From Caprella mutica (taxonomy: Eukaryota; Arthropoda; Malacostraca; Amphipoda; Caprellidae): 64,000 nucleotides of DNA. Positions 1,890 through 64,000 of this stretch are shown piece by piece; the stretch's first letter is position 1; every line of letters starts with the position of its first letter. The DNA lies in NCBI GenBank assembly GCA_947561585.1, contig CANNZV010002537.1:1-64000 (forward strand), given 5' to 3'. The position numbers and the translations under genes were made by a program. The notes beneath the pieces are model-generated. The model was given only the letters and a program-made list of their open reading frames with translations, searched no databases and was not told the DNA's origin.

Positions 1890-2140
1890 TCAAAGACGTC
1901 TCGACAAGTTCAAAACACGACTCGACTAGTCAAAACGCGTCTCGACAAGTTCAAAACACGTCTCGACAAGTTCAAACACGTCTCGACAAGTTCAAAACAC
2001 GTCTCGACAAGTTCAAAACACGTCTCGACAAGTTCAAAACACGTCTCGACAAGTTCAAAACACGTCTCGACAAGTTCAAAACACGTCTCGACAAGTTCAA
2101 AACACGTCTCGACAAGTTCAAAACACGCCTCGACAAGTTT
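1890..2140. repeat. 21-bp minisatellite, about 12 copies, 3' of the C9orf72 homologue
   Basis: Tandem 21-bp units of the type CGTCTCGACAAGTTCAAAAC plus A. Because 21 is a multiple of 3, the plus strand stays open over an 89-codon frame encoding a heptapeptide repeat (KHVSTSS). No start context or homologue suggests a real gene. The array begins about 110 bp beyond the C9orf72 stop codon (2251-2253), so it is probably in its 3' UTR or immediate downstream flank. Confidence 0.93.
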
Positions 2141-2250: not shown

Positions 2251-5200
2251 TTACGGTGTTAACATTCTTTTCATTCCGGGCTGCAGAGAATCGGCAACAG
2301 CAATGAGCAGATCCAGAGTAGCTTCATCCAAGTCGTGAACCGTCCTTAGAGTTGCGAGAACATTCGGCACTGAGGTGAACCTGACGAAGAGATGAACGAT
2401 TGAGAGTAATAAATAGTGATGAGAAAATATGGTAGCTACTCATGAAGAGAAATATGCAGGAATAATAGGTAAACATGAAAGTGAATATACAGGAATTACT
2501 ATAGTTGAAAATTAATCTAATGGAATTGTAATAGTTAAAAGTAAATTAGTGTGTGGTTCATGGTTTTAGTCATAATGAAAAAAGTCGGATAATATCCATT
2601 TGCTATTTGAATTAGAATAATTTTTCAAACTAATTAAAAACTTGTGTCTGACCCAAGTGGTAGCTACTCACTTGTTGTACTTAATCCAAGTAATAACAGA
2701 CAGTTGGATACTCACTTGTTGTACTTAATCCAAGTAATAACAGACAGTTGGATACTCACTTGTTGTACTTAATCCAAGTAATAACAGACAGTTGGATACT
2801 CACTTGTTGTACTTAATCCAAGCAATAACAGACAGTTGGATACTCACTTGTTGTGCCTCATCCAAGTAATAACAGACAGTTGGATACTCACTTGTTGTGC
2901 CTCATCCAAATAATAACAGACAGTTGGATACTCACTTGTTGTGCCTCATCCAAATAATAACAGACAGTTGGATACTCACTTGTTGTGCCTCATCCAAATA
3001 ATAACAGACAGTTGGATACTCACTTGTTGTGCCTCATCCAAGTAATAACAGACAGTTGGATACTCACTTGTTGTGCCTCATCCAAGCAATAACAGACAGT
3101 TGGATACTCACTTGTTGTGCCTCATCCAAGTAATAACAGACAGTTGGATACTCACTTGTTGTGCCTTATCCAAGTAATAATGGAAAGGGCTTGGTACTGC
3201 AGACTCCTTCTAAAGGATGTAATGTATCCCCTCTTCACCACATTGGAATGGCCTGTTAGGAACTCCATGTCCTTTAGAAAATCCTTCACTTGACTAGATA
3301 CTTTGGTGACATCCTTCACCACCTCCCTAGGAAGAAACATAACTTTGAAAGTGAAAAAAAAATAGAATTTTTCCGAACGGTTCGACATATTTGATCATAT
3401 ATAAAAAAATATGATAACCCTAGTAAAACATTTTATATTTTCCGTTTTTTATCATCTCATAAGAAAAACTGTCACAACTCTAGTAAAAATAAACACTTTT
3501 TTTGATTTTTTTTATCAATTTGCTAATAATTTTTTTTATTATTATTTCATCAATTAAAATACTATTATTTCATTTTTCCCCACTGACCGCATACTGCCAG
3601 AGGTTTGAGGCAGACTTTGCCGCACAGTTCCATCATTCAGGTTACACACGGTAACAGGGCGGCCGTACTCAAGCAGCATCTCGGCAGTAATTGGGCAGCC
3701 TTTGCCGTCACTGGTAACTAGGCCCTGAATAACCAGGCCTGCGTACAGTTCTGTCTGCTGACTGTCAAGACACAGACGGGAAAAGTAGAGCTCTCTGTCT
3801 GACAGAAAAAGTGCTAGCCACAGAATCACCTGAAAACGGGGAAAATAAAATATATTTTGTCGTATCGAGAACTTGTCATAGATCGATTAAATAATTAGAT
3901 TACATCAAAGTGTGTTCCTTTTAACAATAAAAATTTAAAATATTAATCAATATATAATAATTTATGAGATACAGATGTTTGAGAAGTAAATACCAGTAAA
4001 ATTGACTGCATAATTTTTCAATTGAAAAGAATAATAAGAAACCTTATTGACAGATGATGTGGTGTCCCCAATAACAATAGAGTAGCCCCTGGTCTGCACG
4101 TGAGAAGTAAGTAGCAGTAGAGAGAGCTGACTGTCAGAAGGTTGCTGTGCAGTAGGCAGTAGAGGGTACTGACTCAGGGAGGAGTGATGGAGAGAGAGGA
4201 GCATGGAGCACAGGGAGCAGAGTGGAGACACTCCTGTAGTGGAGATAGATTATCTTTATTGAAGATAGCTATTTTTTTTATCTCAATAATTTAAAAACAA
4301 ATAACTGATAACTAAATTTAGTGAAAATAACCTTTAACTCTAGTTTATTATTATTGTAGCTATTGAAATGTTTATTATATTATTTATATAGTTATTATTA
4401 ACCACCATAATATGTCTAAATAACAATAAGGGCTCAGTCAATCGAGCTGCTTTGATCGAGGAACATCTTTTGGAGAAATTCCATTGAACTCCCATGTTAA
4501 AACTCGGGGGACAGCTGGCACACCCCAGCTTTTAACATGGAGTTCAATGGAATTTATTTCAAAAGCGGTTTCAGGTCGGCCAAACCGCTTTTCCACTGCG
4601 ACAACAAAACCGAAGTTTGACAGAAGCCCTAAGGATTCTCACATCTGTAATTTAGATTTGATTTTCTGGGTTATGTAAAGAAGTGAGTATCCAACTGTCT
4701 TCTTTGAAATTATTTAAGGAAGGTCTGGTTCTTCTTGCACGGGGGCCTTTAAAAAATAATAATTTCTGGGTAAGCATTTCATAGCATGAAGCTGAATCTG
4801 CTTTTAAACTTGAATGATTCTTGATCAGTACCATTGACGCAACTGACCTTTAGGTTTAAGTAAGTGCTTGATTTACTGGACTAAATGAAGAGAAAAGTTT
4901 ATACGTTTCTCTTTTATATATTAAATAGCTATATTCTAATTTTTTTTGTCTGTAGCTATTTCAATAGAACTATTATCCTATAAATGTACTTTCCCATTAA
5001 AAATAACAGGTCATCATCAATACTAATTTATTACCCTTTATTAGGTTACTTTATTAATAGATAAAATGCATTTTAAAATTGAATAAAAACAGGGTAATTT
5101 AAATATCAAGTCAATATATTCCCGTGCGTATCATAGTTACATTCTTCATGTTAAATACCCGTCGAAAAAAAGCGGACACCAAACAAATAAATAAACACAC

Positions 5201-36169: not shown

Positions 36170-37515
36170 CCTAGGAACATATCTAAGATGTGACATATCT
36201 AAGAGATAACATATCTAAGATATAACATATCTAGGATGAAACATATCTAAGAGATAACATATCTAAGATATAACATATCTAGGATGAAACATATCTAAGA
36301 GATAACATATCTAAGATATAACATATCTAGGATGAAACATATCTAAGATATAACATATCTAAGATATAACATATCTAAGATATAACATATCTAAGATATA
36401 ACATATCTAAGATATAACATATCTAAGATATAACATATCTAAGATATAACATATCTAAGATATAACATATCTAAGATATAACATATCTAAGATATAACAT
36501 ATCTAGGATGAAACATATCTAAGATATAACATATCTAAGATATAACATATCTAAGATATAACATATCTAAGATATAACATATCTAAGATATAACATATCT
36601 AAGATATAACATATCTAAGATATAACATATCTAAGATATAACATATCTAAGATATAACATATCTAAGACAAAACATATCTAGGATGTAACATATCTAAGA
36701 TATAACATATCTAAGATATAACATATCTAAGATATAACATATCTAAGATATAACATATCTAAGATATAACATATCTAAGATATAACATATCTAAGATATA
36801 ACATATCTAAGATATAACATATCTAAGATATAACATATCTAAGATATAATATATCTAAGATATATCATATTTAAGATATAACATATCTAAGATATAATAT
36901 ATCTAAGATATAATATATCTAAGATGTGACATATCTAAGATATAACTTATCTAAGATATAACATATCTAAGAGATAATATATCTAAGAAACATATCTAAG
37001 ATATAACATATCTAAGATATAATATATCTAAGATGTGACATATCTAAGATGTGACATATCTAAGATATAACATATCTAAGATGTGACATATCTAAGATGT
37101 GACATATCTAAGATATAACATATCTAAGATGTGACATATCTAAGATGTGACATATCTAAGACATAACATATCTAAGATATAACATATCTAAGATATAACA
37201 TATCTAAGACATAACATATCTAAGATATAACATATCTAAGATATAACATATCTAAGATATAACATATCTAAGATGTGACATATCTAAGATATAACATATC
37301 TAAGATATAACATATCTAAGATGTGACATATCTAAGATGTGACATATCTAAGATATAACATATCTAAGATATAACATATCTAAGATATAACATATCTAAG
37401 ATATAGCATATCTAAGATATAACATATCTAAGATATAACATATCTAAGATATAACATATCTAAGATATAACATATCTAAGATATAACATATCTAAGATAT
37501 AACATATCTAATGTA
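36170..37515. repeat. 16-bp minisatellite, about 84 copies
   Basis: Nearly perfect tandem CATATCTAAGATATAA over 1.35 kb. Variants (GATGTGACATATCTAA, GGATGAAACATATCTA, GAGATAACATATCTAA) are clustered: GGATGAAAC in the first 200 bp and GATGTGAC around 37030-37350. It lies between the two F-box loci, outside the duplicated part. Confidence 0.97.
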
Positions 37516-39589
37516 TGACATATCGTTTCTACCCTTTTTTCAATCCGTATACTGTTTAGGGAATAGACTTTGGACTTAACACAGGTTTTCTTTAACCTTA
37601 CTTAAAGATAGTCTAAACATAATAATAATACAAAGAGACACTAACAAGGAAAATATATTTTATGTTTTTGTTCTAATAATTAACTGGAGTTGAATTTAAG
37701 AATATTTATCACTATTACATTGGGCAAGTTACGAATAATAAGACAGTTCTACATTTTCGATCATAGAAGAAAAGGATATATCACTTGACATTTCAACTCC
37801 TAACTTTACTAAAATAACTAGTAATGAAATAAATAATAGTTATTATATTTTTTTATCACATGATTGAAAATGTGTAACAGCCACAGTACATAGAATAGGA
37901 AGTAGATTATCTCCCATTATTTTTGAATTTCCCTAGATCTGCGTCGTGATGTCATAGAATTTAGGGAAATTTAGGCGAATTAAGATTGTAACTACTGCGC
38001 CATTGGCAGTGTTTATTTAAATAATTAGTACAAACTTCACACTTTCCTGTCAAAAGTGAAGAAATAAACAATGCTATATGTTAAAAAGTGTTCTTTTAGG
38101 GACTGTAATAACACTTCTTCTATTCTATAATGTACTGTGGTTACATCCCGATAGTTCGTAAGTTCTCCCAGTGTCTACAGATACACAGTACTGTAAAGGT
38201 GTGAAAGAAACAAGAAAATGGACAGAGAAAGACCTAGAATATTTGTACAGTATTTTGAAGACTCATTGTAGTCTTGTTTTGTTACTCATGTAATACACAT
38301 GTATGTTCGGAGCCCTGAGGAGTGTTTTTTTCTTTTGACGAACGGGCATTTCTTTATTTCAATATTCATATTCAATATTTCCAGTATTTAAGTTCTTTCT
38401 TTCACATGGTAGCGTGGTTATTAATTAGTGCCGAGCGGCCATTTAATTACGTGGGTTACGATTCTCCCTAGAAAGAATAATCAATTTGTCTAATATACTG
38501 TTTACGTTACTTGTCAATAATAATTAATTCCTTTACTTCATTAAAAAGCATCAAACCAAATATCGTACCAAAATAACAAGGTTAAATAAAACACAAACAT
38601 AATTTAAATTAGGTGTACTCTAATTAAGTAATAGATCAGACAAAAGGTTCGAGAAATAGTAAATCCTACATAAACTTCGTACATTTAATTCAATTAATCA
38701 AATATCTACCTATGGAGGAGTTTAACTTACAAAATGGGTCAAGCTTTGGAGGTTGAGAGTATTCTTTTCACAAATAAACACTGACACAATCACTGAGGAA
38801 ATACGGATGGGGTTACTGAATTTCTAATGGAGTGGGTGCGGCTGGAAACTCTTTGGAACCACTGTACTAGTGTGTTGGTATTGGTTGCAGTCTTCTACTG
38901 GAACTTTGCTAATTGACGTGGACGACATCTCGTGCAAATCACGGTACTAAGATGGTGACTCTGACTTCAGACTCCTACTGCTTATTCAGAAATTATTCTG
39001 CAACGTCAGAAGTTGTTCTGCAACGTCAGAAACTATTCTGCAATAGACTTCAGTTCTTGGTTATAATTAACTTCAAATAACAAACCGGTCTGAAGATTTT
39101 ATAACTACAAGTATACACACACATGAAATGTAATTTAACTAATACTAAAATATTTACAATTTTATTTATACAGTTCTTTTTTTAGAGTTATAAACTAGTG
39201 AAATTACGAACCCTGTGATCTTCCTCAAACGAAACCCTTTGGTAAAATATAAGTATACACAGTTTACCTGTTTAATCAAACTCATTATCAATGATTAACT
39301 CATTAATTTGTTTGGGCGAAACTTTAAATTTTCATAAATTTTAAATCACATATCTTCGTTTCAAATCTGACTCCAATACTAATTTTTAGTTATTTCTGGT
39401 ACGCAGGGACGGAATTTAAACATAAATTCTTAAGGAGTCATAGCTTATTCTGCTGAGTTAACTCTCTATTCGGCTTATTATAAGTAATCACTACAAAATA
39501 ATCTAATTTGAAGTTCTTATTCCTCAAATTTTGAAATAATGAACTATTTCGAATACCTAGAAACTCTCCTCCAATATATCTACATTTTG
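37516..39589. other. 3' flank of F-box locus B
   Basis: 38145-38290 is a close copy of 25665-25810 downstream of F-box A (CCGATAGTTCGTAAGTTCTC...). It shows that the duplication reaches past the genes. A small palindrome-family MITE remnant lies at about 37725-37885, matching one at 25545-25670. A threefold TTCTGCAACGTCAGAA motif occurs at 38995-39045. No gene seen. Confidence 0.6.
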
Positions 39590-42500
39590 AGCGAGATTCC
39601 TTGTTGAGATCCATGAATAGTTTGTCACAGAAATTCTCGAATATTGACGTGGTGAGGAATGTAGGAATATCAAATTCATCTAGTTTATCAGATTAAAATA
39701 GATCTGCTATTATCTGATTGTTAGCATCTACAGAGGAAGATGAATGAAGTCAATTTCTTGGCATTATATGTTCAGAATTTCGTCTTTTCTGATATCAGAT
39801 GCATCGAAGTCACCCCTCAGAGTAATTAGCTTCAAATCTTTACATTTATTCAATGTATTTATTAGAGGCCTAGTTATAGAACCTTTGAAAATCACTTCTT
39901 CGATAGTGTCTCCTTTGAATTCAAGAATCTTCTCCAACACAGAGGAATCTTTCCCTTCAAATTTTATACTGGTTATTTTACATGGATGGTATCGACGTAT
40001 GAGATCACTATCAGCATCTACCAATTTTGGGAAAAAGAAGATATAGATATCAATCATTTTATAATCACTATACAAATGGCAAACTCCATTGTAATTACTC
40101 ATTTTCTTACATTCTCTGATAATTAAGTGTACGTAGTCTCCAATTTTTCTGAAATCAATTATATTGTAAACTAAATAGATCTCGTCGAATGGAATTGCTA
40201 CAGTTTTCAATCTAGTAGATTCTGAAAGCTCCTTCTTTAATGCTTCCATATAAAAATCTCTTCTGCTTTCTTCAATGAAGTAATGCTCAAATTCATGCCT
40301 CTGAAAAACAGAAAAGATTAAATATAATTTGTAACTTTCCTACTAATTTAACGATAATATTCTCAAAATAGGTCGTCTAAAAAAAACACTGCCACGGATG
40401 ACAGGAATTTGGCTCCTTTGATAACAGACCTAAACATTCAGTTTATTATTAAGGATAAGACACTATAGGATAAGACAATATAATACCTATCCATGGATAA
40501 ACGAATTTTTCTGTCAATCAGTCTGCTTATCCCTAGACGAAAGCAGGTTCTAGGAAATTTCGGCCTCAGAAAACGTCTCGGTTTATATTGAAGAACAGTA
40601 AAAGAAAAAGTTGAAATTATGAATGCTAAAATGTGTAGTGTATTTATTTATTTATTGAAACCATTGTAAGTTGATACGTAAAATTTGTAATTTTGACAGT
40701 TGATATAATATTGCATTCAATATTGAAAAGTAATCAGTTGGAAAAAATGGATATTCTTATTCTGATAGTGATATCCATCATTGCTTAATGTTTATGGTAT
40801 GAAAAATATAATTGTATTGATTTCTAGAATAATGTGATTTCAATTGCACTCAACTAACTGGCCTAACTAAAAGAGTCAGTGAAATTGCTTCAATAGAACA
40901 GGTTAGTTGCAACTGAACTTGAATTTCGTTTTAAATTTTTGTTCACATATTCAAACTGCTAATTTTTTTGAACCAGGTAAAGTAATATATATGAATTATA
41001 ACTGCCACTTATGAATGTGATATTTTAAAAATAAAATTAGGTTACTATAGTACAAAATAACTCACCGAGATTAAGATGCTTCTTCTCCAGTGTTCATCTT
41101 CTGCGAGTCTGTTGAACCTATTGGAAACTTGCGCCAGATTGAATCTATCGGTCAGTCCATCCAGATGGCCAAAAATCATCAGAATGACTTCATCAGGAAA
41201 TTCACCCAAAGAGATCTGAAAGAGGAAAAAATCCGAAATATTAGAGTTTTTAATATAAATGAAGTTTAGGATTTTTTTTATTTTGTTTTATCGATAAAGT
41301 TAATATTGTGTGTCAATTTTATGTCGTAATCGTTTGCTACTGCAAAACCTGAAGCATGTTATTTGTTTGATATAAATAGATGAAGATGGTGGCTTTGTGT
41401 AGCCCCCTTTTATATCTTAGTCATCTGGTACAGAGTACAGAGTAGTTACCCGAGGGAAATCTGAAAAGAAATGTTTTCTAAGTTCAGAATCGGGTCTCTC
41501 ATTCATGTTCTTGTTGATATGAAATGAAAAGCTGTATCCAAACTCCAGTCAATAGTGTAAGTAACTCCTTAGTCTAGTATATGGAATAGGTAGTGCTAAA
41601 GAATACAAAGTTATCACATAATTAGGTATATAGCAGTCATAATTAACAAACTATGTAACAACTTGTATAACAAAACAACACAAGTAGATATATGTTGAAT
41701 CCTAACTAGAAAGATAATATTATATGATCATAAGTTCATTACACTTTATGAACAGCTCATTAAACTATAAACGCCATGATGAGCTGGTCTGATCAACAAT
41801 AGACGGCATGAACAGACACTGTGCTATGCTAATGGTATAAGGACCATAGAATAAAAAGTGTGGGCCTTCATTATTCTTGGCAAGTCTCACCATACTTTTC
41901 TTACTGGGTAGACAGTGAAGTTGAAATATTTCAGAGAAGTATCGAAAGCTGGAAAAATAAATTTACCAAGTTGATAAATTTTTTGGTCGTAAGAAAATAT
42001 AGTGAAAAACGATATATCTACATCGTGAAATTTCAGATATTATAGTTGAAATTTTTTGTCCAAAAGTTCTGTAACACTAACAATTGAAAAATTCGAACAT
42101 TTAATTCAAATAAATGATAATACATATATAGCTATCTGGTTTCATAGAATGTGTGACATTTGGTGTTTAATTTTAATATCTATAGTCTATTTCTCCATAA
42201 ACAAACAGTTTCTTTCATGTGACGGTCAGAAGGGTTTTACAGGGAGGCCTCGCATATATTACCAAATCACATCTAAGAGTTATTACAAATAGTAATAAGA
42301 GCTGGGTATGAGTCACGTCATTATATTTGTAACACCTGTAACATTCCATTTTCAGTTAGAATTAAAGAAAATGGTTATGAAGGTCAACATTGCATATATT
42401 GAAATCTCTGATAAAAGTTTTAAGTAACGAATGAATTAAAATTCAATCATAAAACAACTCTCACTCAGTATATGATAATAATTAGTTTGGAATTATATTT

Positions 42501-43547: not shown

Positions 43548-45139
43548 GACTACGTGCCACACTTTTGTGCAGATCACAAATTTTGGGATAAAATGAGTAA
43601 AAATCAATGAAATAAAATGATATTTGCAGTTAATATGGAAACCCTCACTAGGAGGTTATGTATAAAATTTGTAGGTAATCCGTTGTTTATTAACCGAGTA
43701 TGATCAATTTTTACATTATTTAACCGTGCTACGCTCTTGTGTTTGTTGTCCTCACATTTTTAAATATCGAAAATGAGTCGCCGCTCGTGTCTTTCTGACT
43801 CTGAAAAGAGTAAGATAGTATCCATGCTGGCTGAGGGACATGATGCAAAGTCTATTTCCACTGAAATCGGTCGTGACCCACGTACAGTGAAGAAATTTAT
43901 TGATAATCCCATGAGGAAGGTCACTCGTAAGGATAAGGGTAAATGGAAAGTAGCAACCAGGCGGAACTTGTCCAGGATCAAGAGGGAACTCAAAAGGAAC
44001 TCCACTGCCACAAGTGGGGAAATTTTCAAAAGTGCAGGTATGGAGGAAGTCCCCAAAACCACTCGTTGCAGGATCTTGAGAAGTATGGCTTCTCATGTTT
44101 CACCCGTTATCAGGCCTCCTTTGAAGGAGTCACACAAGAAAGCAAGAGTTTCTTGGGCTGAGAAGTATCTCAGGACAGACTTCCAGACTGTGCTCTTCAC
44201 TGATGAGATGCGAGCGACTCTTGACGGCCCTGACGGTTGGGCAAAGTCATGGACTGACCATGGCTCTTCTCGTCCTCAGATGATTCGTCGTCAACAAGGA
44301 GGAGGAGGTGTTATGATGTGGGCTGGAATACTTGGAGACAGATTGGTGGGACCCTTCCGTGTACCAGAGGGCGTTAAAATCACGTCAGCTAATTATATTA
44401 GCTTTTTGAAGAACAATTTTGTTCCGTGGCTGAAGAGGCAACCAGCTGCACTCAAGAAAAAGATCATTTTCATGCATGATAACGCCCCGTCCCATGCAGC
44501 TACAGCCACCCGCAGTTACCTGGAAAGTCTTAAGTTCTCGGATGATAAATTGATGGTCTGGCCCAGCCTCTCACCGGATTTAAATCCAATTGAAAACCTC
44601 TGGTCCATATTAAAACAAAAGTTGTATGCGGGAGGACGTCAATTCACAAACAAGGAGGACCTCTGGAGGGAAATTGAGAAAATCTGTGAGAAGATAACAC
44701 CAGATACTATAAATAAGTTGACTAGCTCCATGGATAGACGTCTTTTGAGGGTCGTTGACAAGAGGGGAGGTTTTACTGGGTATTAATAATTAAAATGCAG
44801 TTTTTGTTATAATTTCATTAATTTTGTATTTTCGAAGTAATTAAATTTGCACTCTTGTAGCTCCTGCATATAAATAACACTTTTTGAGTTAAATAAAATT
44901 GTTTTTGAACGTTATATAAGCACTTTTATCCTTCTGCACAAGAGCGTGGTACTCTGAAATTATACCTTTTTAGGAAAAATCCTTGTCAATTCACCAATAA
45001 GTATCACAGGCATTTGAAATTTCTTGGCATGTTACATCTGTATTGGACAAGTGTCTACTGAAAATTTCAATGGATTTGGATGAGTTATACTCATTTTACA
45101 GCAAAATGTGTGATCTGCACAAAAGTGTGGCACGTAGTG
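43548..45139 (+). mobile_element. Full-length Tc1/mariner element, DD37E type, 1.59 kb
   Basis: The left end (43548) GACTACGTGCCACACTTTTG and right end, inverted, CACTACGTGCCACACTTTTG continue together for about 29 bp (TGCAGATCACA), with TA on both outer sides (43546-43547 and 45140-45141). Inside each end is a second, diverged copy of the end motif in direct orientation (43724-43745 and 44932-44956). This gives an IR/DR arrangement as in Sleeping Beauty-like elements. One intact transposase frame fills the middle. It is inserted in intron 1 of F-box B, and the corresponding place in locus A (about 31745) lacks it. Confidence 0.95.
43773..44786 (+). CDS. Tc1/mariner transposase, DD37E, intact, 337 aa
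   Basis: Cuts and pastes its own element at TA sites. Two N-terminal helix-turn-helix regions bind the element ends: about residues 7-45 (LSDSEKSKIVSMLAEGHDAK) and 60-105 (RRNLSRIKRELKRNSTATSG). The RNase H-like catalytic core has D144 (VLFTDEMRA), D236 (FMHDNAPSH) and E274 (SPDLNPIENLW). There are 37 residues between the last two, hence DD37E. A glycine-rich GGGGVMMWAG segment and the PDLNPIENLW signature are typical of the superfamily. The start ATG at 43773 is the first in the frame, and the usual family length is 330-350. No stop or frameshift is seen, so the protein could be active. Confidence 0.97.
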   Translation: MSRRSCLSDSEKSKIVSMLAEGHDAKSISTEIGRDPRTVKKFIDNPMRKVTRKDKGKWKVATRRNLSRIKRELKRNSTATSGEIFKSAGMEEVPKTTRCRILRSMASHVSPVIRPPLKESHKKARVSWAEKYLRTDFQTVLFTDEMRATLDGPDGWAKSWTDHGSSRPQMIRRQQGGGGVMMWAGILGDRLVGPFRVPEGVKITSANYISFLKNNFVPWLKRQPAALKKKIIFMHDNAPSHAATATRSYLESLKFSDDKLMVWPSLSPDLNPIENLWSILKQKLYAGGRQFTNKEDLWREIEKICEKITPDTINKLTSSMDRRLLRVVDKRGGFTGY

Positions 45140-49124: not shown

Positions 49125-52100
49125 TCATGACTTGAGGAGCTCCACATTTATCCAGGTGAACAATATTTTCTTTTCAATTTTCTTAACATTGTAGCGGCAA
49201 TTTGATAATCCTTCAGTAGATAACTTTTTTAAGCCTTCCTTTCTAATCTTCCGCCTGGTAAGAGGAGATCAATTGATGTCATAGTTAATAACAGCTTTAG
49301 TCATTAGTATAAGAAAGTGAACGTCAGTAAATGGGGCAAAATAAATGTGATACCATTGAAGAATGGCGATTATTCATTATTCACAATTCTACACAGTCTT
49401 ACCTATCAGGGTTTGGTGTCGCATGTTTGTGTGGAAGCATTTTATACCGGGCAATACCGATATTGTATCGGGTTACAGACAATCCATGATGCTTAATGCG
49501 ATCGAACATGTCATCATCTTCAGATCCCCATCCCCAAAATCTGAGTAGAAAGATGGAACAATACTTCAAGGATAAGTATTTTAACAGTATATACAAGATG
49601 TCAAAAAATGCTTCGTTATGTAGATAAAGATTTTTTTAAAAGGTTTTAATTCAGTAGGTTGGTTGGCAAATAATTTATATAATGAGGAACTTGCTGATAT
49701 GTTAGAGCGCACGGCAATACGTTAGAGCGCACGGCAATGTTTGAGAGGCTGTTAGATTGTTTCAAGAGAGGTTCCCGAATAGGTATTTGCCTGGACACGA
49801 TATTTTAACGGCCTTACATCGTCACTTATGTGAACATGGAAGTTTTGGAATAGACCGGGAAGCCGATGGCTGGTCTCAGCCAATGCATAACTTTGTTGAG
49901 GGTTCGTGTCTCACTATTTCCTTGAAAGTCCTCGTGCAAACACCAGAGTTGTAGCACATGACTATCTATAAATGTTTGGCGTGTTGTGCAATGCAACAAT
50001 TTACTGAAGTGGAGGAAGAAAAAAGCTGGAAGCAAATATTTCGAATAATTATTGTACATTAAATAACATTATAATAAGTATGTAGCACTTTAATTTTCTA
50101 CTAATAACCACCATCTGATAGGAACGTAAATACTTGTGAATATATAGGTAGGAAAACTTTAAAAGCCAGTGCCTTGAAAAAAAAAACAGTTTTGAAAAGT
50201 TAGGTTTTGCAAAATTGCACTACAATCAGAGTATCCATATTTCAATAACGAAGCATTTTTGGACTTTTTGTTATTCTTGAAAGAGGTATTATTTTAGTTT
50301 TTTATGCAAGCTGTAAAATTTTGTAGGATCAGAAATAAAACACCTTAAATAGTGATAATTTATAAGTTTCTTTTCTGACGAATGCAATTAACCTGTTGCT
50401 GAAGCCATTGACTTTTTCGAAATCTTCAGTCGACATGGCACTCACACCACCAAAATATCTCTTGTACCAAGGTCTGTGGAAAGAGACAGACATTATTGAC
50501 TAGGAGTAACCTATGTTAAAGCTTGATGACTATATACCTTTAAAGTTTAATCAGCCAAGTGTTTTTCTTTTCTTCAGATATCTAATATGTAGGCATGAGA
50601 CACTTGCAATCGCATATAAAATATAATTATTTGAAAATATTAGAAATATACCTATAGTGTATTATTATTAAGAACTTCACTATTTATTAATTTGACGGCA
50701 GGAACAAAATGTAAGATTATAAAGAGAAAAAAACTACATTAAAGACACATGAAGCTTTTGAAACAAACTTCATGGAGGATGACGCTTTTGTTACCAAGTT
50801 AGGAGGACATTTTTTTTCTTTGATGTGATAGAATTAGCAACTCCATAGTTAATTATTTGTTATTATAAGTAGTCTCATTCTTTCATCATTTCAATAAAGT
50901 AAAGGAATTGGAAATGACGAATTTTCTTCAAAGGATATTTTGTTCTTCACTATTTTTTTTTTCAAATACTAGGGATTAAAATATTTTCCTTTCTTTTTTA
51001 AATAAACTATTAAAAGAAGTGCATAATAATTCTTAAAGGAAAGATAACCTATGCATAAACATAAAGCTTTGATGTAGCTTTCTTAACAAATCGGACTATA
51101 TAAGATAATAAATTCAAATAGACATTAAAAACAACTATATCTTCCCAGTCAAAAATAATAACTCGAGTGATATTCCTCAGGGATAACTTGGGCCATTGAG
51201 TTATGATTAGGGTTGTGACAATATGCGTTTAAAATTATAGATCCTGTAAATATTATATACGGAGAGAAATAAACTGTGTTGAATCATTCTAATTCAGCAG
51301 TATATAGTATTCACTACCATTTCGTTTCGTCTATGGTATCCCTAAGATCTATGATTTAAAACGCATATTGTCACAACCCTAGTTATGATATACACTAGGG
51401 AGAGAGGTAGTGTTGCAGCGATTGCAGGACGATGAGAACGACGTTGTAAAACCTTATTTTGTTTCAGTTATATCATTACTCCATTGAACTGACGCTAGAT
51501 TGCCTGTCACGTGACCCCAAAATAAGGAATTAACCGTCCTACAAGACGCGATATAATGTTGGCCACTGGCTTGCCACTTGGGTTGCTGCCTTTTTTCTGA
51601 AACACCCTGTATAATGCTACAGTTTATATACTACTCACTTGTAGTTTCTTTTGTCAAGTGCCAAACTCATGTGTCTGGGCTCCTTTGGGCAAGAGTAAAT
51701 ATTCCTATCGTCCTCCGGCACGTGGTCCACATCATGAAAAATATAGCAGTCGAACTGGTAAAGCTTCGAACCTTCTATCGCCCCAATATTCATGAGCTGA
51801 GCTCTATTGAACCTATTCGTATCTGGAATAGAAGTAAAACAGAGTCCCATGGAGCAATGTTCAATTAGCAGATGACTTCATGCTAAGCTCACTCACCATT
51901 CTGCTCCACCACAATAATAGTGTAATCTAGTTGTTGTTTCTGCAAGAACGGGTGCAAGTGTTTCAGCCAAATGCCTGAGAAAAGAAGCTGCCTGAGAAGA
52001 AGCTGAAAATTCATACCCTCCCCGATAATTAGAGAAAACAAAAAACAGTTTTCTAATTTTGAATCTATAAAATTAATGCTTTACAAGCGGACCATATATC

Positions 52101-53952
52101 GTTACAGGATGCCTAGCTATCCATATATGTCTCGTTAATTTTTATGGAAGTATACACTAGTTCTGTATAATTATCAAAATACCTAGATGCTCCTCCCTGT
52201 CTCTGTACGGTGTGATCACAGCAACTTTATGTCTGGCTAAACAGTCATGTGGTTTGAAGTGACCGCCTGCAAGAAGTTCAGGATGATGGCTTTCTTCATC
52301 CGGTATAGAGACTGGATCAGCATTCACTGTCACTCTACCATCTTATGGCAAAATAAGATTGGTATTCAATTTTAAATGATTAGCAGTTTCATAAGGTGAC
52401 TAATTTAGAAAACTCAAAATGAATTAATTGGAAATAGTCAAAATTCAGCTAATTTTTTAATAAATGAAATACGTTTATGACAAATTGCAGAACAAAAAAA
52501 TCTTATAATGTTGAATTCTGACAGAGAAAAAATGAAGAAGTTATATAAAGCAACAATAACATATAACATGCATAATTTGAAATATTGCTAGCTTTATTAT
52601 AAAGGAGTGATTTGAAATTAGTAGTTTTATTATCGTGTATACATACAGCTACGAATTTATTTAAGAAGTTCGTGTATTTTATATGTGCAATACTACGATT
52701 ATCAACTCTGTATATTTATATATAGAGTACGTAAAACTTAAAAAGGGTAGAATACCTATTTTAAAGGTTTAATTTCTTACTGCAGATGAACAATTTAGTT
52801 GCTTCCTTAATCACTCACGCAGGTTAGGTGGTTTCAAAGGACAATAGGCCATCTTTTCTGCTACTTCGTCCTGGTTCTCATTGTTACCATTATGAGATTC
52901 AAATGTCTTGTTGCTTTCGACAGCCAATGAAGAGGAATTGCTATGGTGGTACTTATTCTAAAGGGGAAATCATTAGCCATTTGATAACATGATAGGATTC
53001 ATTTCCAACTTTAACAATGAGGCAAAATAGAACTCTAGCCAAGTTTGCTATTCATATTGCATCGTGGGTTTCAGAATGAATTACTAATAACCTCTTGTTG
53101 ACAACTTGACAATAGTGAAATCTACCGAGAAAGTAGCTTACAGATTGCTGAAGCCTTATTTTTACATTATCATTCCCCTAATGATTTAAACCTAGAAATC
53201 TCACATTTATCGTCCACCTGATGTTGAAATTTTTCATGGTGACGTACGTTGAAAGAAGCAGGATTAAAAAGATGAACCTAAAAGTGTTGCGTTTGCGGCG
53301 GCAGAAGTGACCTGAGGGGCGGAATATAATTTCTTCACTAGTAACAACATCCTAATTAATTGTTCAGTACATCCTCATTACTCTAAAGTTCTAAACATTT
53401 ATCAAAATATGTATTTTATCTTTTCCAAGAAACTGTTCTCAGATGACAGCAAGATGTTCTTCATGCACGTCCGACCGACGACCGGTGGTTGAAATATCAA
53501 ACTCAGATACGATGTGTTTGATTTACTCTACATTTCCAAACACATTAAATAGAATATAAAATATATATTATCAATATTAGTTTAAGATACACTCATATTC
53601 AATTTAAGAGTTTGTACAAAAATTGGTTAATTATTACTTTAAAGTAATAGCTATTGATTAATTTTACTGATAAATTATTAGCATTTATTTTCCTAGTTGA
53701 GGACATTAATTTTACATACCAACATTTATTCTTCATTTGCACAAAATAATATATAATTTTTGGAGCACAATAATTAACATCGTGCGATTTTCGTTGGATA
53801 ATTTATTTAATCGGAATTTAACAAATTCGCGCCCAAACGATAGAAATCGCAAAATGTTTAATAATTTTGAAAAACAAACTTTAAGTTTATTCAGTAATTG
53901 CTTTCTTACCTCGATAGAAGCCACTTGTTTTCAATAGCTCTGCAGATTCCAT
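49125..53952 (-). CDS. Beta-1,4-galactosyltransferase family (GT7) Golgi enzyme, complete, 9 exons, 352 aa
   Basis: Exons: 53952-53910, 53311-53205, 52957-52819, 52341-52183, 51974-51897, 51822-51639, 50473-50393, 49540-49403, 49254-49125. All phases match (1059 nt). The start ATG at 53952 has a good context (AAAATGG). A type II signal anchor follows the basic CRRKRNTFR: FIFLILLLSTYVTM at about residues 26-39. A stem region with NSS and NKT sequons follows, and the GT7 catalytic domain begins near HKVAVITPYRDREEHL. Then come WLKHLHPFLQKQQLDYTIIV, RFNRAQLMNIG, the metal-binding FHDVDHV (DVD at about 206-208), YFGGVSAM and FWGWGSEDDDMFDRI (about 265-279). The enzyme transfers Gal or GalNAc from UDP-sugar in beta-1,4 linkage to terminal GlcNAc. 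The residue equal to Tyr289 of bovine B4GALT1 is Tyr (YFGG), which in that enzyme favours galactose. The C-terminus has a family-like KKLSTEGLSNCRYNV. Confidence 0.95.
49745..49880 (+). pseudogene. DUF4817-like transposon fossil in a galactosyltransferase intron
   Basis: The plus frame reads RAVRLFQERFPNRYLPGHDI then LTALHRHLCEHGSFGIDRE. From memory this matches the DUF4817 helix-turn-helix domain (pattern ERFPNR...LC.TGSF) found in many arthropod Tc1/mariner-like elements. No catalytic part follows; the frame drifts and ends at 49954. Just upstream, GTTAGAGCGCACGGCAAT is duplicated in tandem (49702-49739). Confidence 0.6.
51208..51381. mobile_element. hAT-like MITE, copy 4 with perfect 8-bp target duplication
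   Basis: 174 bp, TAGGGTTGTGACAATATGCG...CGCATATTGTCACAACCCTA. It is flanked by GTTATGAT on both sides (51200-51207, 51382-51389). It sits in the galactosyltransferase intron between exons 6 and 7. Confidence 0.93.
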
Positions 53953-57745: not shown

Positions 57746-58211
57746 CAAGTTACAATATACATTCAGTTAATTAAGAGCTGTAGAGTTCTTTGATGAATTC
57801 ATTGTCAGTTGTCTAATTCCCGGATAAAATTGAACTGATCGCTTTCATAATTGAGAAACGTTTTTTTTTTTTAAATATGCTGCATCTTACAAAATACCGT
57901 TAGTCGTATATTTTTCGTAAGCTCATCAAACCAGTAATGTCAAATTGTTACCTGCTTATTAAAATTATTAATAATTATCGCCTTAAAGGTCCTAATAGGT
58001 TCGAATGATTCAGTAAAGGTAGAATCATTCGTAGAGCGGCTAGAGCCGCTCTACGACCGTCAGTTTCACTAAATTAAATTATTAATATTAATTAGTATTA
58101 AACTGTTAATTTATTTAATTATGATGCTTTAATTATTAGTATTAATTAATTCATTAATATTAATTTAACTATCAATATGAATTAATTTATTAATGTTAAT
58201 TTACTTATAAA

Positions 58212-58389
58212 CAGGGCTGGGACAATATGCTCTAAAAACTATAGATCCCAAAAATATCATAGACTGAAGGAATTTAAGAATATCGAATGGTTCTGCACCA
58301 GCTGTAAATAGTATTCGATACCATTTCATTTCGTTTCGTCTATAATATTTTCAGGATCTATAGTTTTAGAGCATATTGTCCCAACCCTA
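58212..58389. mobile_element. hAT-like MITE, copy 6
   Basis: 178 bp, CAGGGCTGGGACAATATGCT...GAGCATATTGTCCCAACCCTA. It is flanked by CTTATAAA and CTTATTAA (7 of 8 matching). The GGGAC/GTCCC change is present in both ends, so the arms have stayed complementary. Confidence 0.92.
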
Positions 58390-58446
58390 CTTATTAATAT
58401 TGAATTAAAACAGTACCAAAGATATCTGAATTAACAGCAAATTTTG

Positions 58447-58785
58447 TCAGTATTTTAAAAATATAATAGAGCTGTAAAAATTACTACTATACCTAAGAGC
58501 AGTCAAGCCGTAGCGGCTCGAGCCGCTTCGATTGTACGGCTGTAGACGCTCCATTGGAAAAGGGTAAATGGGATATAACGGACAGCAGTCGAAAAGGAGA
58601 GCCTCGAGTCTCTTCAGCCACCGGAAAATGAAGAGGTGATAGTAAATGAAGTCTAGGAGTCTGCCCGACACAGAATCTAAGACCTCGTAGTTGAAGAGCA
58701 TAACCCTAGCGCTATCTTCTAAAACTGCAAGTAGCGTTAAAAAGATAAACATGGTAAAAGCGAAAGAAGATCGTACATAATCCAA
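58447..58785 (-). CDS. Small ORF with a membrane-like segment, probably element-derived
   Basis: Open for 112 codons; the first ATG (context ACCATG) would give about 101 aa. A hydrophobic stretch MFIFLTLLAVL is followed by EDSARVMLFNYEVLDSVSGR. A diverged, frameshifted copy lies on the other strand at 34018-34230, which suggests a mobile element rather than a host gene. It ends about 0.1 kb from the Argonaute 3' repeat array. Confidence 0.3.
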   Translation of the reverse strand: MDYVRSSFAFTMFIFLTLLAVLEDSARVMLFNYEVLDSVSGRLLDFIYYHLFIFRWLKRLEALLFDCCPLYPIYPFPMERLQPYNRSGSSRYGLTALRYSSNFYSSIIFLKY

Positions 58786-58846
58786 ATTATAACCTCTGGG
58801 TCTATACTAAATTAAAGGAAAAGCATGAACCCCAAAAAGCTAATAT

Positions 58847-58852
58847 ATTTAT
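58847..58852 (-). promoter_or_regulatory. Possible polyadenylation signal for the Argonaute gene
   Basis: AATAAA on the minus strand, about 65 bp beyond the distal end of the 24-bp repeat array and about 1.1 kb past the Argonaute stop. If used, the array is a long repetitive 3' UTR. Confidence 0.35.
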
Positions 58853-58917
58853 TTGAAAAAGAAATCTTTAAAGCATCAAGCAATACATTTAAAAGATTAG
58901 GAACATTCACACACAGA

Positions 58918-59960
58918 ACAGATTTAAAAACGAAGAGCAGATTTAAACCGCAAACGAAGAGCAGATTTAAACCGCAAACGAAGAGCAGATTTAAACCGCA
59001 AACGAAGTGCCGATTTAAACCACAAACGAAGAGCAGATTTAAACCGCAAACGAAGAACAGATTTAAACCGCAAACGAAGAGCAGATTTAAACCGCAAACG
59101 AAGAGCAGATTTAAACCGCAAACGAAGAGCAGATTTAAACCACAAACGAAGAGCAGATTTAAACCACAAACGAAGAGCAGATTTAAACCGCAAACGAAGA
59201 GCAGATTTAAACAGCAAACGAAGAGCAGATTTAAACCGCAAACGAAGAGCAGATTTAAACCGCAAACGAAGAGCAGATTTAAACCGCAAACGAAGAGCAG
59301 ATTTAAACCACAAACGAAGAGCAGATTTAAACCACAAACGAAGAGCAGATTTAAACCGCAAACGAAGAACAGATTTAAACCGCAAACGAAGAGCAGATTT
59401 AAACCACAAACGAAGAGCAGATTTAAACCACAAACGAAGAGCAGATTTAAACCGCAAACGAAGAGCAGATTTAAACCACAAACGAAGAGCAGATTTAAAC
59501 CACAAACTAAGAGCAGATTTAAACCACAAACTAAGAGCAGATTTAAACCACAAACGAAGAGCAGATTTAAACCACAAACGAAGAGCAGATTTAAACCACA
59601 AACGAAGAGCAGATTTAAACCGCAAACGAAGAACAGATTTAAACCGCAAACGAAGAGCAGATTTAAACCGCAAACGAAGAGCAGATTTAAACCACAAACG
59701 AAGAGCAGATTTAAACCGCAAACGAAGAGCAGATTTAAACCACAAACGAAGAGCAGATTTAAACCACAAACTAAGAGCAGATTTAAACCACAAACTAAGA
59801 GCAGATTTAAACCACAAACGAAGAGCAGATTTAAACCACAAACGAAGAGCAGATTTAAACCACAAACGAAGAGCAGATTTAAACCACAAACGAAGAGCAG
59901 ATTTAAACCACAAACGAAGAGCAGATTTAAACCGCAAACGAAGAACACGTTCAAAGCTCA
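58918..59960. repeat. 24-bp minisatellite, about 43 copies, beginning at the Argonaute stop codon
   Basis: 24-bp units, plus strand CAAACGAAGAGCAGATTTAA then ACCG. Eight codons per unit keep one plus frame (KSRFKPQT) and two minus frames (NLLFVCGL and RFKSALRL) open for 345-380 codons. The unit next to the gene is diverged and contains the Argonaute stop: minus-strand GTTTGAGC aligns with GTTTGCGG of the other units. The plus-strand and other minus frames have no credible start and are not called as genes. Confidence 0.97.
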
Positions 59961-62900
59961 AACATAGAACTGAGAATGACCAATACCATCAGCTGACACA
60001 TTGCAGTTTTCATTCAAGAACTCCACGTATTCTTTGTTAGTTGCTGGATCTTCATTTTCTTTGAGTTCAGGAGCTGAACTTATCCTTGCAGTGAGGTGGG
60101 TTTTCGCCCTGTAAATAGAAACAAATATTAACAATAATTTAATTTAGAGATTTAATTTACTTCCTTTACCACCGTCATGAATTTTTAAGGAAACCATAAA
60201 TATATAAAATCTTCCTTTCGCAAATCTTCCACTTATTTTTAATCCCTATCTAAAGAGCGTACCTTATAAGTTTTATTTTGTAGGAAATTTAGTGGAAAAG
60301 AGTATAAAAAATAATCAATTTACAAGCTAATATATTGTTATTGGCACAGCATTCTAATTTATTTAACCTAGATAATTTAAAGACTTTATAGTCTATCCAA
60401 TATTAGAATGGCGTCAGAAATTTAAAATAGAGTTAATAATTGAAATCTCGGTGCATAAAAATATATATACAAGTTAATGGGACAAGTCCCAGCCAGTAAC
60501 CATCTGATCACAAAGAACCAAGAGTCTAGTACAGACGAGGCTCTTTTGATCGGGCGTTCTAAAGAGCGTGGCCTAGTACAGACGGGGCGTTTTCTATCGC
60601 ACGTTAAATATACCACATATAATATATGGCAACGCCCGGCAAATGCGCGTTTAAACATAAATCCTTAAACGCGCGTTCGTTGGGCGCTTGAGACGAAACG
60701 CGCTTTCAAGTGTGCGCAATTTCTAGTAACTCGAAGCGCCTCGTCTGTACCTATACCTATATCCCACTCTTTCAGTACGGCCTGTACGGGACGTATACGC
60801 ATGTCGCGTCAAGCTCATACCACTTTACTATCGAGAGGATAAACAAAAATATATGGATACTAACCTATAAGCGGCGAGATGAGCGTAGTAAGCAGGGGTA
60901 GGTATGGACACAGAATTAGAGCACCTGGTGTAAGTGTGGCACAGACTGTATGTCAACAACTGTATGAAGTCACTAGAGAAGTCCGCGTCATCCCACAGCA
61001 CGTGGTAGTGCGATGGCTTGCTGATGCCCTTAGAACCTGAAAGTGTGGAGGATAATTATTGAAATGATTATCAGTGTGAAGAATAATAAAAATAATGGCA
61101 GTTCTGATGAATACTAGATGAAAAGATCAACAGAAACGACAATCCTACTCTAGGTATAGAGCTAAACTACGTCTCTGCTAAATATACATCCAATTTAACT
61201 AATTAATGATACCTGCAGGGATCAAGAATACCAATTAGTTTATTTATTTAATATGATGAAAAATTTGAAACTGCTCTATAATTCCAAACTTTAACTAATC
61301 AAATTACACAGATCTAACCACTACCGTACCACAGATCTAACCACTACCGTACCACAGATCTAACCACTACCGTACCACAGATCTAACCACTACCGTACCA
61401 CAGATCTAACCACTACCGTACCACAGATCTAACCACTACCGTACCACAGATCTAACCACTACCGTACCACAGATCTAACCACTACCGTACCACAGATCTA
61501 ACCACTACCGTACCACAGATCTAACCACTACCGTACCACAGATCTAACCACTACCGTACCACAGATCTAACCACTACCGTACCACAGATCTAACCACTAC
61601 CGTACCACAGATCTAACCACTACCGTACCACAGATCTAACCACTACCGTACCACAGATCTAACCACTACCATACCACAGATCTAAACACTACCGTCCCAC
61701 AGATCTAAACACTACCGTCCCACAGATCTAAACACTACCGTCCCACAGATCTAAACACTACCGTCCCACAGATCTAAACACTACCGTCCCACAGATCTAA
61801 ACACTACCGTCCCACAGATCTAAACACTACCGTCCCACAGATCTAAACATTACAGTCCCACAGATCTAAACATTACAGTCCCACAGATCTAAACATTACA
61901 GTCCCACAGATCTAAACACTACCGTCCCACAGATCTAAACATTACAGTCCCACAGATCTAAACATTACAGTCCCACAGATATAACTTATACCACCGACCC
62001 GCAAATCTAAGTACTACCGTCCCACAGATCTAAGTACTACCGTCCCACAGATCTAAGTAATACCGTCCCACAGATCTAAGTACTACCGTCCCACAGATCT
62101 AAGTACAACCGTCCCACAGATCTAAGTACTACCGTCCCACAGATCTAAGTACTACCGTCCCACAGATAAAAATACTACCGTCCCACAGATAAAAATACTA
62201 CCGTCCCACAGATAAAAATACTACCGTCCCACAGATAAAAATACTACCGTCCCACAGATAAAAATACTACCGTCCCACAGATAAAAATACTACCGTCCCA
62301 CAGATAAAAATACTACCGTCCCACAGATCTAAACACTACCGTCCCACAGATATAAACATTACAGTCCCACAGATAAAAATACTACCGTCCCACAGATCTA
62401 AACACTACCGTCCCACAGATCTAAACACTAGCGTCCCACAGATCTAAACACTACCGTCCCACAGATCTAAACATTACAGTCCCACAGATCTAAACATTAC
62501 AGTCCCACAGATCTAAACATTACAGTCCCACAGATATAACTTATACCACCGACCCGCAAATCTAAGTACTACCGTCCCACAGATCTAAGTACTACCGTCC
62601 CACAGATCTAAGTAATACCGTCCCACAGATCTAAGTACTACCGTCCCACAGATCTAAGTACAACCGTCCCACAGATCTAAGTACTACCGTCCCACAGATC
62701 TAAGTACTACCGTCCCACAGATAAAAATACTACCGTCCCACAGATAAAAATACTACCGTCCCACAGATAAAAATACTACCGTCCCACAGATAAAAATACT
62801 ACCGTCCCACAGATAAAAATACTACCGTCCCACAGATAAAAATACTACCGTCCCACAGATAAAAATACTACCGTCCCACAGATCTAAACACTACCGTCCC

Positions 62901-64000
62901 ACAGATATAAACATTACAGTCCCACAGATAAAAATACTACCGTCCCACAGATCTAAACACTACCGTCCCACAGATCTAAACACTAGCGTCCCACAGATCT
63001 AAACACTACCGTCCCACAGATCTAAACATTACAGTCCCACAGATCTAAACATTACAGTCCCACAGATCTAAACATTACAGTCCCACAGATATAACTTATA
63101 CCATCGACCCGCAAATCTAAGTACTACCGTCCCACAGATCTAAGTACTACCGTCCCACAGATCTAAGTACTACAGTCCCACAGATCTAAGTACTACCGTC
63201 CCACAGATCTAAGTACTACCGTCCCACAGATCTAAGTACTACCGTCCCACAGATCTAAATACTACCGTCCCACAGATCTAAATACTACCGTCCCACAGAT
63301 AAAAATACTACCGTCCCACAGATAAAAATACTACCGTCCCACAGATAAAAAATACTGTCTTACTGTTGTGGGAGCACAAAAAGAAATCGGCACCTAAGGG
63401 GCGAGTTATGAAGTCATCCACTACAGTGCCGGGGGGAATATTATGTGGATCTTCTTGTTTTTTGGTTTTTTCCTTCTCTTCAGTGCAGTTCAACCTGGCA
63501 GAAACAGAACTACACCTTTAACTGTTCTCTCTAATTAATATATTTTAATGCTATTTTTTTTTTAATTTTACCTCTTCGTTTAGTCAATAAAATGATGTTC
63601 GTTTAACTAAAAAATGATCACTAAATAATATAGCTGCATTATAATATTTGAAGAAGCTACCTATTCCAAAATGGTAAGCTATTAAACCGTTGAATTATTA
63701 ACTACACGTTTCGATATAGCTGTTAAACAAACGTTAATATAATAAAGTTGTCAATTCTTCACTAGGTAGAAGTGTAACACTCACCGAGTTTTGTGCCCCT
63801 TCTGAATACAGATGAAGGTGATGCTCGGTTGGTATTTAGGGTCCAGTTCAGTGCATGCATCTCGCATAGCAAGAAGTTCAGTAGAAAGAACCTACAGAAA
63901 ACATTTTCGAATTAGGGAAATGAATGAATAGACACAGAGCCTTGTTAAAATATATATAAACTTAGATACTAACCTCATTGAACTGCGTCTCGCAAACCGC
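59958..64000 (-). CDS. Argonaute (AGO clade), C-terminal half of the PIWI domain, 5' part outside the window
   Basis: Visible exons: 64000-63974 (partial), 63891-63785, 63494-63364, 61036-60865, 60108-59958, in consistent phase, encoding the last 195 residues. Motifs in order: [100 protein letters not shown]. In human AGO2 the last two residues of the DEDH slicer tetrad lie in TVVD and SHYHVLW; both Asp and His are present. Argonautes bind small RNAs and silence complementary transcripts. The C-terminus ends QFYV rather than the common YFA, and a segment after RAK is family-variable. The arthropod AGO1 or AGO2 branch cannot be settled from this part. An intron (61037-63363) is almost wholly minisatellite. 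Confidence 0.96.
60527..60753. mobile_element. GC-rich foldback MITE in the last Argonaute intron
   Basis: Ends TAGTACAGACGAGGCTC and GAAGCGCCTCGTCTGTACCTA are inverted. The left part also contains a direct near-repeat (CTAGTACAGACGGGGCGTT), and the centre has AATGCGCGTTTAAACAT...TTAAACGCGCGTT. It contrasts with AT-rich surroundings. Confidence 0.75.
61315..63358. repeat. 23-bp minisatellite with 555-bp higher-order period, in an Argonaute intron
   Basis: The basic unit is CACAGATCTAACCACTACCG plus TAC or TCC. The left 370 bp are nearly identical units; the rest uses variants (AAACATTACAG, AAGTACTACCG, a shorter ATAAAAATACTACCG). A marker variant ATAACTTATACCACCGACCC occurs at 61981, 62536 and 63091, exactly 555 bp apart. 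This shows block-wise duplication. The array fills all but about 300 bp of the intron and ends about 6 bp from the 5' splice site (63363-63362). Confidence 0.97.

Follow-up and report, generated by a model that had tools for sequence, protein, structure and literature searches.

The closest described case of translation beyond an Argonaute stop codon is Ago1x, the natural read-through form of mammalian AGO1, which is longer by 33 codons (34 residues once the stop position is counted) and is described as still loading miRNA, with GW182 binding lost (PMC6694283, PMC7507497); its charged extension, which goes with a let-7a site, is reported to be conserved across vertebrates (PMC7507497). Another known kind of element is the 3'UTR minisatellite or VNTR, in which homogeneous tandem units, each some tens of bases long, occupy the stretch from the stop codon to the first poly(A) signal and block duplications occur. 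Tandem duplication across exon-intron borders has also been described, in this case as a source of new introns (PMC4974935, PMC2891723).

The locus analyzed here lies in a window of 64,000 nucleotides from Caprella mutica (contig CANNZV010002537.1, positions 1 to 64,000), the term window meaning this whole stretch of DNA. It shares with Ago1x an Argonaute gene, a TGA stop codon and an open frame behind it, but where the extension of Ago1x consists of 33 conserved, charged codons accompanied by a let-7a site, the Caprella tail comprises 381 repetitive, hydrophobic codons and a let-7 seed site is absent. The likeness to 3'UTR minisatellites extends to all the features named above (homogeneous tandem units, their size, their place between stop codon and first poly(A) signal, and a block duplication), the difference being that the degenerate first unit of the Caprella array holds the stop codon itself. 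With respect to the duplications described at exon-intron borders, the copies are many here, and in the Argonaute gene the border is a stop codon and no new intron results. With a probability of roughly 0.85, the array would be a neutral minisatellite that fills approximately 91% of the likely 3'UTR and was probably seeded at the coding end.

The Argonaute gene and its stop codon

The minus strand from 64000 to 59958 holds the final five exons of an Argonaute gene, joined in frame at GT-AG borders and encoding 195 residues. The first of these exons (63974..64000), truncated at the window edge, was placed by its in-frame GT-AG join and by the match to PDB AGO2 from residue 671, and belongs to the PIWI domain. 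So do the three that follow (63785..63891, 63364..63494 and 60865..61036), which were delimited by Pfam scan and in-frame joins. Position mapping located in the exon at 60865..61036 the equivalents of AGO2 R792, H807 and R812, which are R, H and R. The last exon (59958..60108), which includes the stop codon, was recognized by its in-frame join and by the usual Argonaute C-terminus; the Pfam Piwi model matched three of the four exon frames scanned, this last exon being the one without a match. The 195 residues match PDB AGO2 chains from residue 671 onwards with E-values down to 6e-57, versus 2e-17 for the best Piwi-like chain, and by these comparisons the host gene belongs to the AGO clade and not to the PIWI clade. 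The position of AGO2 H807, a residue of the catalytic tetrad, is occupied by His, the other three positions lying upstream of the part of the gene inside the window.

The frame ends at a TGA (59958..59960, minus strand) followed by a G, and the next in-frame stop codon is a TAA at 58812..58814 (minus strand); both are read directly from the sequence. Among 25 relatives aligned, out of 188 found, 22 end at the same position with an aromatic pair plus one residue, and the remaining three have other ends; the ends of relatives include MYFA, LYFV, MFYC and similar ones, and the present gene ends in FYV. Because the position of the stop codon matches the usual Argonaute end in 22 of the 25 relatives, the best reading of the sequence is that the TGA is the true end of the protein and that translation stops there. 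The leakiest base after a stop codon is C, and the base found at this position was G, not C. In human AGO2, the last residue is described as buried, its carboxylate bonding with, for example, K566 and R792, which in turn touch the guide RNA, and C-terminal tags or fusions are reported to hurt silencing, cleavage and nuclear localisation while sparing cell viability (PMC12296108).

The 24-bp array and its origin

Immediately beyond the stop-containing unit, TRF and unit parsing delimited on the minus strand a 24-bp minisatellite of 42 units (58929..59936; TRF score 1824), each of exactly 24 bp and arranged head-to-tail, with 96% matches and only six distinct sequences, well within the range of head-to-tail homogeneous units of approximately 10-60 bp that characterizes 3'UTR minisatellites. 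Spacing was exact in 41 out of 42 cases, the exception being a spacing of 19 instead of 24 where a 5-base deletion precedes the degenerate trailing edge (58904..58928, minus strand), and the string of units contains a duplication of an 11-unit block (264 bp). The array itself exceeds chance and its anatomy is that of an ordinary minisatellite; all results on it come from a single sequence of one animal. At its other end lies a degenerate first unit (59937..59960, minus strand; 18/24 matches to the unit), and the first three bases of this unit, read from 59960 to 59937, are the stop codon TGA. None of the 112,996 other 24-mers of the window matches the unit as well. The preliminary description had aligned the terminal GTT TGA of the Argonaute frame with GTT TGC of the repeat, and unit comparison bore this out, the degenerate unit giving GTT-TGA where the others give GTT-TGC or GTT-TGT.

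The first AATAAA after the Argonaute stop codon lies beyond the array (58848..58853, minus strand), and the motif scan found neither AATAAA nor ATTAAA between the stop codon and 58853. This signal is located 1104 bases past the stop codon, and the array occupies 91% of that stretch. Since the first poly(A) signal is found on the far side of the array, the latter most likely lies in the Argonaute 3'UTR and would be transcribed as part of it. Splicing of the array was considered as well, and was rejected given that donor-like sites (scores of at least 6/9) are absent from it, the four donors of the gene itself scoring 6 or 7; four acceptor-like CTCTTAG sites were detected in the same scan.

An array placed in this way might also be a functional 3'UTR element, with its many protein or small-RNA sites, or the length it gives to the 3'UTR, tuning the Argonaute mRNA by copy number. 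Placed after the stop codon and ahead of the first poly(A) signal, it would supply approximately 42 identical sites in the mRNA, and the predicted RNA fold is a ladder in which units pair with each other. However, stability beyond that of tandem arrays of shuffled units was not found for this fold (60 shuffles for each of the two main unit types, of which 29/60 and 14/60, respectively, were as stable or more), and nothing reaches an Rfam gathering score anywhere in the window. Six further large arrays, all differing in sequence, are moreover present in the window, so that no special cause is needed for this one. A functional role thus appears improbable, and neutrality would be the better description of the array.

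Regarding its origin, the preliminary description had held that the last residues of the protein lie in the first repeat unit, and that the array may have grown out of the coding end. The first of these claims stood up weakly: when the final 12 bases of the coding sequence are set against the unit in register, 8 of 12 agree, a value equalled or exceeded by 266 of the 113,236 other 12-mers of the window (P = 0.0023); shuffling gave P = 0.02. The 24-base block that contains these bases showed 13/24 matches, and the three blocks upstream of it 3 to 5 of 24. In addition, a 12-mer of the trailing edge agrees with the coding end even better, at 10 of 12 positions (shuffle P = 0.0007), in a comparison that was picked after seeing the sequence. 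Both resemblances are expected if the first duplication took in the last codons together with the stop codon. A coding-end origin is therefore plausible; the array probably has its source in the coding end and the adjoining 3' flank, a proposal that rests on 12 bases and is supported statistically (P from 0.002 to 0.02), not proven.

It is also conceivable that the array owes nothing to the coding sequence and started in the 3' flank, where it would touch the stop codon by chance and resemble the last 12 bases by accident. That the match reaches only 8/12, that shuffling raises its P to 0.02 and that the likeness to the unit breaks off abruptly further upstream would all fit such an origin, yet the stop-containing unit, with its 18/24 matches, has no equal among the other 24-mers of the window, the trailing edge agrees with the coding end at most positions (by the same post hoc comparison), and a 44-bp array elsewhere in the window incorporates a probable coding exon end. 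We consider an independent origin unlikely, although still a serious candidate.

Under the coding-end origin, the array probably started with a tandem duplication of approximately 24 bases that reached from the last codons over the stop codon into the beginning of the 3'UTR. An internal copy without an in-frame stop, having TGC or TGT for TGA, would then have been amplified by replication slippage or unequal exchange, and this amplification would have included the duplication of the 11-unit block. Rare read-through products, if formed, would carry a very hydrophobic tail on a C-terminus that in AGO2 has to be free, and would presumably be faulty or destroyed.

The open frame behind the TGA

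The Argonaute frame remains open past the TGA for 381 codons (59957-58815), up to the TAA at 58814-58812, which confirms the extent given in the preliminary description, where 380 codons had been counted. The further claim that the array keeps this frame open was not supported, as four of the six frames are open across the array and that of (NLLFVCGL)n is only one of them. With a period divisible by three, one stop-free unit suffices to leave a whole array open; the unit here being of 24 bases, the frame repeats exactly and four of six frames are open without any selection. When 24-mers of the same composition were shuffled (n = 20,000), 74% left the frame in question open and 76% left four or more frames open. 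The hydrophobic character of the tail (mean hydropathy of 2.0 over 381 residues) was likewise found among the stop-free shuffled units (n = 14,737), 21% of which were at least as hydrophobic as the tail unit. Among the seven arrays of the window with TRF scores above 400, two more have a period that three divides (21 and 36 bp) and likewise give frames open across most or all of their length, while those of periods 16, 23, 23 and 44 do not. An open frame is the usual outcome for repeats of such a period and does not count as evidence that they code for protein.

Nor does regular spacing point to coding, since the 16-bp array (81/82 spacings), the 23-bp array of the Argonaute intron (82/85), the 36-bp array (16/16) and the 44-bp array (11/11) are regular too. 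Counted against the neutral reading were two non-coding arrays, of 23 bp at 467-1306 (30/37 spacings) and of 21 bp (8/10), which are less regular than the 24-bp array (41/42), and the report that in Daphnia pulex coding regions exceed introns in the density of repeats whose units are longer than 10 bp and divisible by three (PMC3152781). At the codon level, one of the six unit variants is synonymous in the NLLFVCGL frame and five change an amino acid, with Leu-to-Arg and Leu-to-His among them, the possible single changes in the unit being 18 synonymous, 51 amino-acid changing and 3 to stop. Codon constraint was thus not seen in this frame (at most one synonymous variant of six, P = 0.51), in a comparison of low power, six variants being available where approximately 71 independent ones would be needed to detect stop avoidance. 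From a larger pool of candidates, 7999 were scored, and no homologue of the tail was detected among these at E ≤ 0.001, in a search whose composition correction may hide repetitive hits. A Pfam match of the tail to Vitelline_membr (E = 0.008, 16.5 bits, cut-off 25) was dismissed as an effect of composition.

Programmed read-through of the TGA would give rise to a second Argonaute isoform with a hydrophobic, Cys-rich tail of 381 codons, acting as an Ago1x-like inhibitor of silencing or bound to membranes. Such read-through is possible in principle, since Ago1x exists, and the frame is indeed open; but it is open by default, no codon constraint was seen in it (again, at low power), the tail resembles neither the candidates scored nor the short, charged extension of Ago1x, and no match to the let-7 seed is present in the region behind the stop codon, where the Ago1x-like cis signal would be expected. 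To this are added the impairment of cleavage, silencing and localisation, not of viability, in the C-terminal fusions of AGO2 mentioned above (PMC12296108), and the reduction of protein abundance reported for long hydrophobic nonstop extensions (PMC11502859). Read-through is unsupported on this evidence, and as an explanation highly improbable; the earlier idea that the tail matters to the small-RNA effector was not upheld, given its lack of likeness among the candidates scored and the effects of fusions and hydrophobic extensions. A related proposal, in which leaky termination would yield a little Argonaute whose hydrophobic repeat tail serves as a degradation or membrane signal, the array copy number tuning silencing between individuals, we regard as extremely improbable, although, if true, it would mean that small-RNA silencing follows the fast-changing copy number of a repeat.

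The array carries a caution for annotation. Where the period of a tandem repeat is divisible by three, a long open frame within it does not show that the repeat is coding, and gene predictors could append repeat tails of this kind to real genes.

Arrays at exon ends and other elements of the window

A second array in the Argonaute gene, delimited by TRF and the exon model, is a 23-bp minisatellite of approximately 88 copies (61307..63346, minus strand), which starts 18 bases past a splice donor and takes up most of an intron. Stretches of its translation recur 555 bp apart, implying that the array holds a higher-order repeat. A shared origin of the two arrays of this gene was examined and set aside: their units have GTTTARATCTG in common and gave the lowest P among the 21 unit pairs (0.01, uncorrected), a value that is not significant after correction.

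The array of 44 bp (2665..3180, minus strand) lies in a C9orf72-like gene, and its unit is composed of the final 26 bases of what is probably a coding exon, the splice donor and 18 intron bases, so that the donor CAA|GTGAGT occurs 12 times in tandem. The exon end is itself the first copy, 24/26 identical to the consensus of the other copies, and the exon joins the next one in frame. The 18 intron bases are the same in 11 of the 12 copies (the last one differs), and the exon-like part varies. The identity of the gene was based on Pfam PF15019, which matches one exon, and on PDB C9orf72 chains, matched at E = 5e-4 when three exons were queried; a PDB search with only the two exons at the array gave no match, and the stretch with those two exons is weak on its own against C9orf72 (8.3 bits). 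As judged from these sequences, the 44-bp array takes in an exon end more clearly than the Argonaute array does. As in the border duplications proposed as a source of introns, in which a stretch at an exon border is copied in tandem (PMC4974935, PMC2891723), what is copied here is an exon end with its donor.

Altogether, three of the seven arrays with TRF scores above 400 have their start no more than 25 bases away from an exon end, a clustering with P of approximately 2e-4 to 5e-3 when the number of exon ends is assumed to be 20 to 60, the test being rough and post hoc. The Argonaute and C9orf72-like arrays suggest that minisatellites can start at coding exon ends in this genome, in which case a stop codon or splice donor inside the repeat would be exposed to slippage and conversion. 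The possible birth of arrays at exon ends is the more interesting point, and an evolutionary one.

The array of 21 bp (1892-2139, minus strand) lies approximately 110 bases past the point where the C9orf72-like coding sequence likely ends, and the first AATAAA (1512) follows it, a position that makes it probably a second 3'UTR minisatellite. Two similar-looking genes on the minus strand (26129-28727 and 39441-41287) have an F-box exon followed by a long exon without Pfam match, the F-box match having been tested, and found, for the gene at 26129-28727. The array of 36 bp lies in an intron of this first gene, and the predicted fold of its tandem RNA was stabler than those of shuffled units (0/60 as stable), as was that of the 16-bp array at 36176-37524 (0/60).

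Downstream of the Argonaute gene, a MITE-like element (58202-58399) presented terminal inverted repeats whose arms measure 36 and 43 bases and are 86% and 81% complementary. The translations of 58450-58806 (minus strand) and 34026-34244 (plus strand) share a stretch of 24 residues with 75% identity, and are probably copies of a dispersed repeat. A Tc/mariner-type transposase frame of 340 uninterrupted codons was found at 43764-44786 (plus strand), with DDE_3 above its cut-off and the HTH_Tnp_Tc3 models below theirs, and at 49402-52342 (minus strand) lie exons for an enzyme of galactosyltransferase type, matching Glyco_transf_7N and 7C. The window also contains a gene for ribosomal protein L5, which by itself points to an amphipod or some other malacostracan as the probable source: its best species-named relatives are those of the amphipods Hirondellea gigas (71%) and Hyalella azteca (70%), a closer relative being a metagenome protein (76%).
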